This document shows, piece after piece, positions 11,417 through 20,433 of a stretch of DNA of 30,779 bases. The notes beneath the pieces were generated by a model. It made no database searches. It was given only the letters and a program-made list of their open reading frames with translations, and was not told the DNA's origin. This DNA comes from a virus, in IMG/VR virus record IMGVR_UViG_3300025168_000398, positions 1 to 30,779 of that record; one strand, 5' to 3'. The translations under genes and the position numbers were made by a program. Each line of letters starts with the position of its first letter. The first letter of the stretch is position 1.

Positions 11417-11720
11417 CGAACATATGGTCGAGAAATGGCTAAATGACTTAGGTGAATCAGATCATGCCTATGCGGCCGCATGCGCAGAATTTACCGCTGC
11501 CAAAGAAGGCTTAAAGGTGGCAAAAGCTATTGCGATGCCGACCTCTGGCACTGTAGCCGAGCGTGAAAGACAAGCTCTTTTATCGCCTGAATACGATACA
11601 GCTGTTAAAAAATTAACCGCAGCGGAATACGAAAAAATATTGATCCACACACAAAGGGAGCAATGGATCATGGGTATCGATGTCTGGCGGTCAATCAATG
11701 CAAATCAGAGAAGATCATGA
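11403..11720 (+). CDS. Helical early protein of unknown function (105 aa)
   Basis: AAAGGAG lies at good spacing before the ATG, and the gene overlaps the previous one by 14 bases. The product is almost entirely helical and Ala/Glu/Lys-rich (AYAAACAEFTAAKEGLKVAK, TAAEYEKILIHTQREQWIMG), with no membrane segment. The C-terminus carries a Trp-rich helix and ends QRRS. I cannot name a family. Between the P-like and NinG-like genes it probably belongs to replication or recombination accessory functions. Confidence 0.6.
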   Translation: MSLPNEHMVEKWLNDLGESDHAYAAACAEFTAAKEGLKVAKAIAMPTSGTVAERERQALLSPEYDTAVKKLTAAEYEKILIHTQREQWIMGIDVWRSINANQRRS

Positions 11721-12151
11721 TCAAACGAGACGCCTTAGACAATTGGTTTTCATTATGTGTAAGAGAGCGTGCGTATTGGACATGCGAGCGAACCAAGTTT
11801 ATTAGCTTAGACGGCCAAGCGGCTGGCAAATCTCAGTCCCTGGAATGTTGCCATATCTATGGTCGTAGAAACAAAAATGTGCGTTGGAATGGCATGAATG
11901 CAGTTTCACTGACGCATTATGAACACCGATATTTTACTGAAAACCCAGCACAATTTATCCGATGGCTGAATGATTACCTGGGCGAAGAACACATGGAAAT
12001 TTTAAGGGAGCGAGTCAATGACGTGCGCATCAAGTATTCAAAGGCCGAAAGAAAAGAAATCTCAAAACACTATCGACTTGAATTTAGGCGAATGCGAAAA
12101 CTCAGAGACGAAGGGCAAACAGGCCGCATTGAGTTTCAGAATTACGACTAA
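11717..12151 (+). CDS. NinG/Rap-like HNH recombination protein, putative
   Basis: The protein has 144 residues. The start at 11717 overlaps the upstream stop (ATGA). The pattern WFSLCVRERAYWTCERT, then LECCHIYGRRNKNVRWNGMN, AVSLTHYEHRYF, and RWLNDYLGEEHMEILRERVN resembles NinG/Rap proteins: a Cys-containing first half, a conserved His in a GHY-like motif (here CCHIYGR), and a C-terminal helix Y..L....G.E....L. NinG-type proteins process branched recombination intermediates. The paired Cys residues of typical zinc motifs are only partly present, so metal binding may differ. It lies in the nin-like region between replication and late-regulator genes. Confidence 0.6.
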   Translation: MIKRDALDNWFSLCVRERAYWTCERTKFISLDGQAAGKSQSLECCHIYGRRNKNVRWNGMNAVSLTHYEHRYFTENPAQFIRWLNDYLGEEHMEILRERVNDVRIKYSKAERKEISKHYRLEFRRMRKLRDEGQTGRIEFQNYD

Positions 12152-12342: not shown

Positions 12343-12691
12343 TTGGCTGTCTCAGTTATTAGATGAATGGGCTATCTGGTGGTCAAACGCAGAGCATGGC
12401 TCATACCCTAGCAGCACGGCCATCTGGCGGATATTACATTCCCCAGGGGACTCTGGTTTTGAAAGTTCGTTACCAAAAGGCGTTATCCCTCCGGCCGGAT
12501 TGAACAAGATTAACCTGGCGATGAATGCTTTGTTGCATTCTGATTGCGGAGAAGCCGTAGCTGTCGTCCGATATTTGTACTTATATGGACGTGAACGGAC
12601 TACCTACGATCTAAAACTTTCACAAACACGTTTCTACACACTCAAAGCCCAGGGTGAGGCGTGTCTTAAAGGATTTTTAAAGGCTGCATAA
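12332..12691 (+). CDS. Q-like antiterminator / late regulator, putative
   Basis: The protein has 119 residues and starts on TTG at 12332; GGAGGAG seven bases upstream supports this start. The N-terminal part (LLDEWAIWWSNAEHGSYPSS) and the C-terminal helices (EAVAVVRYLYLYGRERTTYD, LSQTRFYTLKAQGEACLKGF) follow the layout of phage antitermination Q and related small late regulators, with an HTH-like end. It is the last gene before the methyltransferase and the late region, the usual position for Q. Such proteins let RNA polymerase pass terminators. The assignment rests on pattern and position. Confidence 0.5.
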   Translation: MHNDWLSQLLDEWAIWWSNAEHGSYPSSTAIWRILHSPGDSGFESSLPKGVIPPAGLNKINLAMNALLHSDCGEAVAVVRYLYLYGRERTTYDLKLSQTRFYTLKAQGEACLKGFLKAA

Positions 12692-12692
12692 T

Positions 12693-13364
12693 GTGGATAT
12701 TGCCGAAGAATTACCCACTGTCATCTCACTATGTAGCGGATATGGTGGAATCGAGCGAGGACTTGAGCTTGCTGGATACAATCATCAGCTCATCGCTTTT
12801 TGTGAGATCGAAGCCTATGTCGGGAAGCTCACTCTTGAGAAAATGGAAAAGGGACAAATGGTTTCAGCGCCTTTGTGGACAGATCTTAAAACCTTCCCAG
12901 CACAGATCTTTCGAGACAAGGTTGATCTCTTACTTGCAGGCTATCCCTGCCAACCGTTTAGCCAAGCCGGTCGAAGGGGGGGGGAAGATGATCCACGGCA
13001 CCTATGGCCCTACATCAAGGAACACATCAGAACAATTAGACCTGTTCGATGTTTCTTTGAGAACGTGCAAGGACACATCACGCTGGGACTCTCCACAGTC
13101 ATCTCAGATCTGGAAGAATTGGGTTATCGCACAACGTGGGGAATATTCTCAGCGGAAGAAGTCGGCGCTCCGCATCAAAGAAAAAGAGTGTTTATCTTGG
13201 CCGACGCCGGAAGCGTGGACAATACAAAAATATTCTCTGCAAAAAGATGGGCAGAAAAAGACACAGAGATCGAAGAATTTAACATCGATGGCATTGAATG
13301 GGGAGCTTTCCCAGCCAGACCAGGACAAGACCAGCATGAATGGGAAGAACCAAGAGTCCTCTAA
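12693..13364 (+). CDS. Cytosine-5 DNA methyltransferase, catalytic part (motifs I-VIII)
   Basis: The protein has 223 residues and starts on GTG at 12693. It transfers a methyl group from S-adenosylmethionine to cytosine C5. Motif I is at 11-21 (ISLCSGYGGIE), motif IV at 84-90 (YPCQPFS, nucleophile Cys86), motif VI at 123-127 (ENVQG) and motif VIII at 162-168 (QRKRVFI). A segment FPARPGQDQHEWEEP near the end is also seen in intact family members. The protein stops there, without target-recognition region or motifs IX and X; these lie in the overlapping +1 frame (12988-13773). A nine-G run at 12976-12984 encodes part of RRGGE after motif IV. Probable roles are protection from host restriction or marking of phage DNA. 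Confidence 0.88.
   Translation: MDIAEELPTVISLCSGYGGIERGLELAGYNHQLIAFCEIEAYVGKLTLEKMEKGQMVSAPLWTDLKTFPAQIFRDKVDLLLAGYPCQPFSQAGRRGGEDDPRHLWPYIKEHIRTIRPVRCFFENVQGHITLGLSTVISDLEELGYRTTWGIFSAEEVGAPHQRKRVFILADAGSVDNTKIFSAKRWAEKDTEIEEFNIDGIEWGAFPARPGQDQHEWEEPRVL
12976..12984 (+). repeat. Nine-G tract: possible ribosome site and slippage site
   Basis: Nine consecutive G residues lie inside the catalytic methyltransferase frame. They end three bases before the ATG at 12988 that would start the second frame. A G-run can pair with the anti-Shine-Dalgarno CCUCC using G-U wobble, at suitable spacing. Homopolymers of this length are also prone to slippage during replication and to sequencing error, so copy number needs checking. 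Confidence 0.5.
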
Positions 13365-13773
13365 CTGGCTGACACCTAGAGTCCTTGAGGTTGATGAAAG
13401 CTATGAAAATTATCAACAACGCATGGTTAATTCAAAAAATCCCAAAAACATAGGGAAAAAAAGACCGAGTAATTTAACTATGCAGGTAAAATTACAAGAT
13501 AACTGGCCGACGCCCAGAGCCAGCAACCCTGGAAGTCGTCCAAACGGAAAAGGCGGCAAAATACTTGCCGAAGAGGTTCGAAAAATGGCAGAAAAGCGGT
13601 CTGGCAAATTAAATCCTGATTGGTGCGAGCAATTGATGGGGCTGCCTGTTGGCTGGACAAAAATAGACGATGCTGATGATCGCATTTCGCGATTGATGGC
13701 TATTGGCAATGGTGTGGTGCCACAAACTGCGGCATTAGCCTGGGAAACTCTGAGTGAAAAGATTAAACAATAA
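12988..13773 (+). CDS. Second methyltransferase polypeptide: target-recognition region and motifs IX/X in the +1 frame
   Basis: From the ATG at 12988 the +1 frame encodes 261 residues and overlaps the catalytic gene by 377 bases. The early part (HGTYGPTS, KDTSRWDSP, WKNWVIAQRGEYSQRKKSAL) and repeated WPTP-type boxes (WPTP at 71-74, NWLTP at 126-130, NWPTP at 172-176) are patterns I recall from phage methyltransferase variable regions. The C-terminus has LNPDWCEQLMGLPVGW (about 208-223) and AIGNGVVPQTAALAW (238-252), which fit motifs IX and X. The frame is also open upstream to 12691, but that part does not look like protein. It would dimerise with the catalytic half to make an active enzyme. 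A frameshifted single gene is the alternative. Confidence 0.68.
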   Translation: MIHGTYGPTSRNTSEQLDLFDVSLRTCKDTSRWDSPQSSQIWKNWVIAQRGEYSQRKKSALRIKEKECLSWPTPEAWTIQKYSLQKDGQKKTQRSKNLTSMALNGELSQPDQDKTSMNGKNQESSNWLTPRVLEVDESYENYQQRMVNSKNPKNIGKKRPSNLTMQVKLQDNWPTPRASNPGSRPNGKGGKILAEEVRKMAEKRSGKLNPDWCEQLMGLPVGWTKIDDADDRISRLMAIGNGVVPQTAALAWETLSEKIKQ

Positions 13774-18467: not shown

Positions 18468-18767
18468 ATGGAAATTCAGCCAGCTAAGTCGAGAGGCGCA
18501 CAGCCAGGGAATAAGAATTCAGTGAAAGAAAATCGAGAGTATCGAGCCGCGCTATTGCGCACAGTAAAGCAGTACGAGAAACGTGGTATCACTCGAGGTG
18601 ATGCGTTACGAGCAGTGACTGAGAAATTACTAGAGCTTGCGTTAGATGGTGAACTGCCAGCAATTAAAGAAGTAGCAGATCGGGTGGATGGAAGGCCAGC
18701 ACAAGCGATTCATGGCGAGGAAGGACAACCGCCAGTGATCACGTTTGAATGGAAAGACAATGGTTAG
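18468..18767 (+). CDS. terS: Terminase small subunit-like protein
   Basis: The protein has 99 residues. There is no strong ribosome site before the ATG at 18468. The N-terminal motif RGAQPGNKNSVKENREYRAAL is followed by helices (GDALRAVTEKLLELALDGEL) and AIKEVADRVDGRPAQAIHGEE. This set of motifs is typical of small phage proteins annotated as terminase small subunits or DUF5681-like. TerS recognises the packaging site on the phage DNA and feeds it to TerL. TerL lies one gene downstream, with a large extra gene inserted between, which is unusual. Confidence 0.7.
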   Translation: MEIQPAKSRGAQPGNKNSVKENREYRAALLRTVKQYEKRGITRGDALRAVTEKLLELALDGELPAIKEVADRVDGRPAQAIHGEEGQPPVITFEWKDNG

Positions 18768-20433
18768 CTTCAGTCAGCCGCAACGGATCAATCCATACAA
18801 CAACAATAGTCTGTCATCGCAAGGTGGGGACTATTTGCGCAGGGTGGCTCGTTCTGCGCCAAAAGCAGATTTTAGAAAAGGCATTGGTCTTGGTGTTCCT
18901 TCAGCGATATTAGGTGCGCCAGGTGATTTGTCGCAGTTAGCAGCAAGTTTACCAGGGCAATCAATATTTGATTACGCTCAGATGCTGAATCTATTGCCGC
19001 CAGATAAAGAAAAGGTCAAAGGCTATTTAGAAGGACTTTTGAATCCTCAAATAAATGATCAAGAGGCTTACGATACAGGCAGCGGTTTAATAGCCGATCT
19101 GCTATCGCCAGCAGCGGTACTTAAGGGGCCGCAAACTGTTAAGCGTGCCATTGATTACGCGGTCGATCAGCCTGGTGTTTTTGATGGTGTTGGCGAAGTG
19201 TTGATGGGCGGTGCTTTAGGTCAGAAACGCTTTCAAAACAATATATTTGTCGGAGAGTCCGGCGCACCAATTAAACGCTCTCGTGATTTAGAGCGTGCGC
19301 AAGAATTAGAGCGAACAGGCAGCACAAAAGATTATATCTGGCGTGAAACAGGCTGGGGCCGTGGCGTTGATGGCCAGTGGCGTACCGAGCTAGACGACAG
19401 CGCGGCAACTGTTACGATGCCAGAGCGACCGTTTAGTGGCGACATCACAGAGGTGTTGAAGCATCCAGAGTTTGACGTGACAAAAAATTATTTGCCTCCT
19501 GGAGCAGAGCAACAAGTCAGACTAGATTTACCAGCCCCAACACCAGACGCCGCATTGCTTGGAGACACTGGCCCAATGGGTATGTTTGCTCGAGCAGAAA
19601 ATCGTATTACATTGCCAGCAAGAAGAAAATTTGATCACGACGAAGATCAATATAAAACAATTGCAGACCCAACTGAAACAAAAAGCATTTTACTGCATGA
19701 GTTACAACATAAAGCGCAAGAGCTTGATATGTTTGGGCGAGGCGGCAATCCAGCAACAGCAGTTAAACAAGCAGAAAATTACTACGGCGATGAAATAACA
19801 AAAATAGAAAAGAAATTAGGTCGAAGCACTGACGATTTATTGCAAGAACAGGGCAAATTACAATGGCAGTATCAGCGATTAGCAGATATTGATGATGTTT
19901 TGCATTACGAGAACATCACTAAACCAAGATTTCTTTTTAATACTGGCGAGTATTACAAACACAGCAATGATATTGCGCGAGAGTTTGGCAAAATGCCAGC
20001 CCGACATCCAGCGCGAGGCGAATGGTTAGAAAAAGCCGGACGTTATATAGCAGACAAAAAAATAGCTCAGTTTAGAGCAGATGGTGATTTGAATTTTGAG
20101 CGTTATTTGCCAGGTGCCAGGAAGGATAGGAAAGCAGTAAAAAATGCCATGCGCCGCGCACAATATGCACTTGATAAATTGCCACGTAAAGAAATGTTTC
20201 AGTTACGAAAATTGCGTTTTAGACAAAAAGAATTGCGCAACAATATTGCTAATTCTTTTACTGATGAGTCGCGAGATCAAATAGACTTTGATACTTACCA
20301 GAGACTAGCAGGTGAAGTTGAAGCGCGAAACGTGCAAAAGCGAATGGATTTCTCCGCAGATGAGCGCAGACAAACGCCTCCCTGGCAAACGCAAGACATC
20401 GAAGATGAATACCAGATTATTGTGCGCGAATGA
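18760..20433 (+). CDS. Polyvalent-type protein with zincin (HExxH) motif between TerS and TerL
   Basis: The protein has 557 residues from the ATG at 18760, overlapping the TerS stop; an in-frame TTG at 18745 is less likely. Residues 1-150 contain hydrophobic stretches (GIGLGVPSAILGAPG, DLLSPAAVL). Around 195-215 the sequence WRETGWGRGVDGQWRTELDD matches a block seen in large polyvalent phage proteins. The motif LLHELQHKAQ (His313, Glu314, His317) is a zinc-protease HExxH. Near the end GEVEAR (518-523) could supply the third ligand, followed by PPWQTQDIEDE. Polyvalent proteins are thought to enter the host with phage DNA. A protease acting on host or virion proteins is inferred. The gene overlaps TerL by four bases. 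Confidence 0.68.
   Translation: MVSFSQPQRINPYNNNSLSSQGGDYLRRVARSAPKADFRKGIGLGVPSAILGAPGDLSQLAASLPGQSIFDYAQMLNLLPPDKEKVKGYLEGLLNPQINDQEAYDTGSGLIADLLSPAAVLKGPQTVKRAIDYAVDQPGVFDGVGEVLMGGALGQKRFQNNIFVGESGAPIKRSRDLERAQELERTGSTKDYIWRETGWGRGVDGQWRTELDDSAATVTMPERPFSGDITEVLKHPEFDVTKNYLPPGAEQQVRLDLPAPTPDAALLGDTGPMGMFARAENRITLPARRKFDHDEDQYKTIADPTETKSILLHELQHKAQELDMFGRGGNPATAVKQAENYYGDEITKIEKKLGRSTDDLLQEQGKLQWQYQRLADIDDVLHYENITKPRFLFNTGEYYKHSNDIAREFGKMPARHPARGEWLEKAGRYIADKKIAQFRADGDLNFERYLPGARKDRKAVKNAMRRAQYALDKLPRKEMFQLRKLRFRQKELRNNIANSFTDESRDQIDFDTYQRLAGEVEARNVQKRMDFSADERRQTPPWQTQDIEDEYQIIVRE

Follow-up and report, generated by a model that had tools for sequence, protein, structure and literature searches.

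Several short target-recognition segments lie in tandem within one chain in the multispecific C5 methyltransferases of Bacillus phages SPR and phi3T. In M.EcoHK31I the second polypeptide is encoded in an overlapping frame, and the genes of M.AquI overlap at most slightly. M.EcoHK31I (YGGCCR) consists of two polypeptides, with motif IX only in the smaller one and with motif X and the predicted target-recognition domain assigned to alpha; M.AquI (CYCGRG) carries motifs I-VIII in one subunit and IX-X in the other (PMC3404938). Start codons that themselves overlap have been described in E. coli, where ribosomes can initiate in both frames at certain AUGUG and GUGUG sites, although examples are few and the peptide quoted as the alternative pqiA product has 15 residues (Kohl et al. 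2022, PMC9841429). Proteins nested in a C5 methyltransferase gene have also been annotated in Paenibacillus phage Lily (LILY_63, 'g62 internal gene') and E. coli phage K1ind2 (ORF28, 'Mte8-like'), and both match the beta family described below (5.8e-44 and 1.1e-64, respectively). With M.EcoHK31I, M.AquI, PHROG 1008 and these internal ORFs, the kind of enzyme considered here is already known.

The locus lies in a stretch of viral DNA of 30,779 nucleotides (IMG/VR record IMGVR_UViG_3300025168_000398), referred to here as the window. The source is a tailed phage, whose genes include one that is integrase-like and others for a RecE-like exonuclease, a terminase and an SU10-type portal. A gene upstream of the locus, at 11663-12151, matches NinG/Rap junction endonucleases (phrog_5034, 2.7e-14), and a large ORF ahead of the terminase (18745-20433) contains an LPD23 domain. 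An initial sequence-only reading had proposed that a C5 methyltransferase is encoded here in two overlapping reading frames, recalling M.AquI and M.EcoHK31I as precedents; the proposal was borne out by a PF00145 match in one frame (alpha), a phrog_1008 match in the +1 frame (beta) and a partition of the motifs between them (Table 1), and the precedents proved right in substance (PMC3404938). Dual coding of a split enzyme is the best-supported reading, and overall the locus is best read as a heterodimeric C5 methyltransferase with an overlap of the M.EcoHK31I type and a motif split of the M.AquI type. We place at roughly 80% the probability that it encodes a two-subunit C5-cytosine methyltransferase, with one stretch of DNA read in two frames to give the two subunits, in which case both proteins would be expressed and would assemble.

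Table 1. Coordinates of the features of the methyltransferase locus in the window
Feature	Positions	Strand	Basis or comment
AAAGG, Shine-Dalgarno-like	12679-12683	+	sequence; 7 nt 5' of the ATG
ATGTG dual start	12691-12695	+	ATG 12691-12693 opens beta; GTG 12693-12695 opens alpha
Alpha, putative C5-cytosine methyltransferase catalytic subunit, 223 aa	12693-13364	+	PF00145, phrog_363, AlphaFold2
Alpha motif I	12720-12749	+	
Alpha motif IV (PCQ)	12939-12962	+	
Alpha motif VI (ENV)	13056-13067	+	
Alpha motif VIII	13176-13196	+	
Run of nine G, inside both frames	12976-12984	+	sequence; eight G in locus L001
Beta, putative +1-frame subunit, 360 aa	12691-13773	+	phrog_1008 (6.5e-26, residues 76-355); frame open over alpha in homologues
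Beta N-terminal extension, residues 1-75	12691-12915	+	upstream of the phrog_1008 match; long-beta group only
Three beta modules (WPTP 13198, WLTP 13366, WPTP 13504)	13198-13608	+	proposed target-recognition modules; families and shuffling
Motif IX-like LNPDWCEQLMGLPVGWT, in beta	13609-13659	+	assigned by pattern and position
Motif X RLMAIGNGVVPQ, in beta here (type 2)	13690-13725	+	in alpha in most relatives (type 1)

Alpha matches PF00145 over residues 9-190 (7e-32) and also matches phrog_363 (2.8e-49). Its four motifs follow one another in order on a Rossmann-like catalytic domain, all within the frame in which they had been placed from the sequence alone. An AlphaFold2 model (pTM 0.70) gave M.HaeIII and M.HhaI as its top PDB matches, and the profile alignment of alpha with these solved C5 methyltransferases ends after motif VIII; motifs IX and X are absent from alpha in the window. 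The best-supported assignment, from profile matches and the predicted fold, is that alpha is the catalytic domain of a C5-cytosine methyltransferase and would methylate DNA. The alpha tail (13296-13364) contains a conserved WPxRPGxEQxEWExPRV that overlaps a recurrent beta stretch, DQDKTSMNGKNQESSNW. In one homologous locus, L030 (2426-4138), alpha reaches the unusual length of 546 aa and runs far past the end of beta.

The two starts have one base in common within ATGTG, and the stop codon of the preceding gene (TAA) overlaps the beta ATG as TAATG. A dual start is present in 45 homologous loci, as ATGTG in 38 and as GTGTG in seven, and in each the first start opens the beta frame and the second the alpha frame. 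In a second start group the sequence is ATGGG(A/T)(T/G/A)CATGGAT, in which the beta ATG precedes the alpha ATG by ten bases. The residues W-I-(L/I)-P-K that follow the dual start are conserved. The single Shine-Dalgarno-like site upstream of the pair could serve both starts, and AAAGG-like sites are also found upstream of many homologues.

Alpha is dual-coding over its full 672 bases and lies nested within the beta frame. The overlap had earlier been put at about 377 bases, which is too small, since from the ATG at 12691 onward the +1 frame is both open and conserved; its portion upstream of 13200, a lack of conservation in which would have spoken against the sequence-only reading, is conserved in the homologues. 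A scan with alpha as the query yielded 80 viral loci; in nearly all of these the +1 frame is open over the whole gene, and the +2 frame is not. Among distinct homologous loci, 69 of 71 contain no +1 stop over alpha, where within-gene synonymous-codon shuffles lead one to expect 5.0 per gene on average. A genome scan supplied natural controls, namely single-chain methyltransferases and a short-beta group (Firmicutes, Bacteroidetes, phages Lily and R23.9, and others) in which beta starts near motif IV. Upstream of motif IV, +1 stops are found in none of 78 viral long-beta loci (1.37 expected in each), in all 28 short-beta loci and in all five single-chain controls. Downstream of motif IV, no +1 stop is found in any of 29 short-beta loci, and the five single-chain methyltransferases have 6-13 within 110 codons. 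The 78 viral long-beta loci, the window included, have no +1 stop in any part. Going by this pattern across the three groups, the +1 frame is kept open exactly where beta translation is expected.

Two sets of loci stand somewhat apart. In four actinobacterial loci (L137, L142, L145 and L147) motif IX seems to lie in alpha, and even so the +1 frame shows a long open stretch downstream of motif IV, for which high G+C is a possible reason. L003 and L004 are two non-identical versions of the same methyltransferase gene at opposite ends of one contig (IMGVR_UViG_3300035162_002567), a pattern that points to variation between strains at a circular junction.

The stop pattern also bears on where beta begins. 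The +1 frame had been credited with an ATG of its own at 12988, behind a G-rich site, and this codon exists, with GGGGGGGGGAAG just before it. If translation began there, behind the G run, beta would be a shorter protein resembling that of M.EcoHK31I, much as in the short-beta group with its starts near motif IV, and the upstream +1 frame would be open but untranslated. Such a start is unlikely, as the viral long-beta loci lack the upstream stops that chance predicts and that all short-beta loci have, and in the homologues beta starts where alpha does, with the dual start and the pentapeptide after it conserved. A tblastn search in phages with the window beta from 12988 as the query gave no match.

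Whether the beta protein itself is under selection within the overlap was assessed from pairs of homologues. A naive test of column conservation returned a z-score of 105 for the +1 frame but also one of 50 for the +2 control, and thus also measures shared descent; in its place, pairs binned by distance were compared with controls. Where the two alpha proteins are less than 45% identical, beta-frame similarity exceeds that of shuffles by 0.17-0.21 BLOSUM units per site, as compared with 0.02-0.04 for the +2 frame and 0.03-0.07 for pairs with single-chain controls. When alpha-silent changes in close pairs were counted, the ratio of beta-nonsynonymous to beta-synonymous changes (SN/SS) was 0.43 (0.33-0.58) in the methyltransferase gene and 0.71 (0.56-0.90) in ordinary neighboring genes, a difference that separates the two only just. 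Alpha-synonymous changes that create a beta stop are 0.28 (0.17-0.38) times as frequent as other beta-nonsynonymous ones; the corresponding ratio in ordinary neighboring genes is 0.77 (0.57-1.01). The dual-frame ratio NN/NS (0.78 here versus 0.73 in ordinary genes) did not discriminate and was left unused. The beta HMM score is 269 bits, whereas none of 500 own-codon synonymous shuffles scored above 190; because these shuffles already average 138 bits, uncorrected E-values of family matches exaggerate the evidence within the overlap. A large part of the uncorrected beta similarity there is induced by alpha or reflects common descent. The sequence comparisons nonetheless point to a beta protein that is constrained there, but moderately.

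The WPTP boxes and motifs IX and X that had been assigned to the +1 frame are indeed found there, motif IX by pattern and position rather than by structure. A motif IX-like LNPxWVExLMGxPxGWT is present in beta of the complete loci, as judged by a strict pattern and inspection of the remaining tails, and motif IX never occurs in alpha except in L026, a frame-shift variant with eight G. Motif X divides the loci into two types: it lies in alpha in type 1 (most loci, e.g., L010 and L012) and in beta in type 2 (seven loci, including the window). Between motifs VIII and IX, beta contains one to seven segments that start with [W/Y/F]xTP, with a median of 43 residues. Module families were defined at 60% identity (looser clustering lumped nearly everything), and at this threshold families recur in differing neighborhoods and orders. 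The window array is M5-M11-M0; elsewhere M5 precedes M0 or M1, and M11 comes first in L010. From about 13311 on, the window and L002 are 98.5% identical in DNA, and their 5' halves are only distantly alike. Across the array of type 2 loci the alpha frame contains 6-21 stops and the beta frame none, which argues that the array functions as beta protein; in type 1 loci the alpha frame is kept open across the array as far as motif X. From their position between motifs VIII and IX and their exchange, the modules are candidate target-recognition domains. No PDB relative of beta was found by sequence, and an AlphaFold2 model of beta alone (mean pLDDT 54.5, pTM 0.24) was too poor for a fold search.

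The same motif layout weighs on two further explanations. A single polypeptide could be made by frameshifting from alpha into a beta that has no start of its own, for example at the run of nine G, which lies in both frames and which, when shortened to eight as in L001 and L026, joins the alpha start to the beta end. This is very unlikely: the product of a shift at the G run would leave out motifs VI and VIII, L002 and L005 have no G run, and type 1 genes hold motif X in alpha beyond the motif IX of beta. The eight-G run itself (2990-2997 in L001), which breaks both frames, could reflect slippage-driven phase variation or else a mistake in assembly. Less probable still is that an indel has broken a single-chain methyltransferase, through decay or mis-assembly. 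Alpha does stop early, at 13364, when compared with type 1 relatives, but the layout recurs in L002, in L003 and in another five type 2 loci, the dual start is conserved, beta stops are absent, and no relative in the group has all motifs in one frame, the long frame of the eight-G variants lacking VI and VIII. An indel merging the frames, which would have undermined the initial proposal, was not seen in independent contigs: L002, L003 and L004, on IMG/VR contigs other than that of the window, keep both frames.

On the two-frame reading, ribosomes initiating at AUGUG would pick either the AUG, giving beta, or the GUG, giving alpha. Alpha would fold into the AdoMet-binding catalytic domain, and beta would supply a helical N-terminal region, the exchangeable module array, motif IX and, here, motif X. 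The beta modules would recognize the DNA target, and the two proteins would assemble into one enzyme whose fold beta completes with IX and X. This enzyme would methylate the phage DNA, most likely against host restriction; for a tailed phage with integrase-like, RecE-like, terminase and portal genes, such protection would be a natural role. We also lean, with less assurance, toward a broader view in which the locus belongs to a widespread phage and prophage class where one stretch of DNA codes for both the catalytic and the specificity subunit, in the lineage of the window from one dual start. In that class beta would evolve by shuffling target-recognition modules, type 1 inserts would have to stay open in alpha to reach motif X, and type 2 would have escaped by moving X into beta.

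It is rare for two proteins of recognizable families that probably cooperate to overlap at length on the same strand, and the locus is a natural example in which a single initiation site would serve two frames. Because several annotations list only one protein, half of many phage methyltransferases may be absent from databases. If specificity is set by the beta modules, these amount to a large natural stock of exchangeable recognition segments.

The open literature was searched (subscription literature and REBASE lay outside its scope), and the complete overlap, the shared AUGUG, the beta-borne array, the breadth of the group and the switch between types 1 and 2 were not found there; M.EcoHK31I itself is named in only four papers of that literature. 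The window resembles M.EcoHK31I in having a second coding sequence in another frame and motif IX only in the second polypeptide, but differs in that motif X, which M.EcoHK31I has in alpha, lies in beta together with the module array. Its beta also starts at the alpha start, has about 75 extra residues and contains the whole alpha frame. With M.AquI it shares the split of motifs I-VIII and IX-X between subunits, whereas the nesting of the whole alpha frame in beta sets it apart; among the relatives, type 1 has the M.EcoHK31I partition and type 2 that of M.AquI. The betas of Lily and K1ind2 start well within the alpha gene, without the long-beta extension and the shared AUGUG. The tandem segments are like those of the SPR and phi3T enzymes, but the array, with its putative recognition role, sits in a separate +1-frame subunit. 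As at the AUGUG and GUGUG sites of E. coli, two overlapping starts can open two frames (PMC9841429), but here both frames encode conserved proteins of more than 200 residues. A layout earlier known mainly from one or two single enzymes is common to dozens of phages and prophages.
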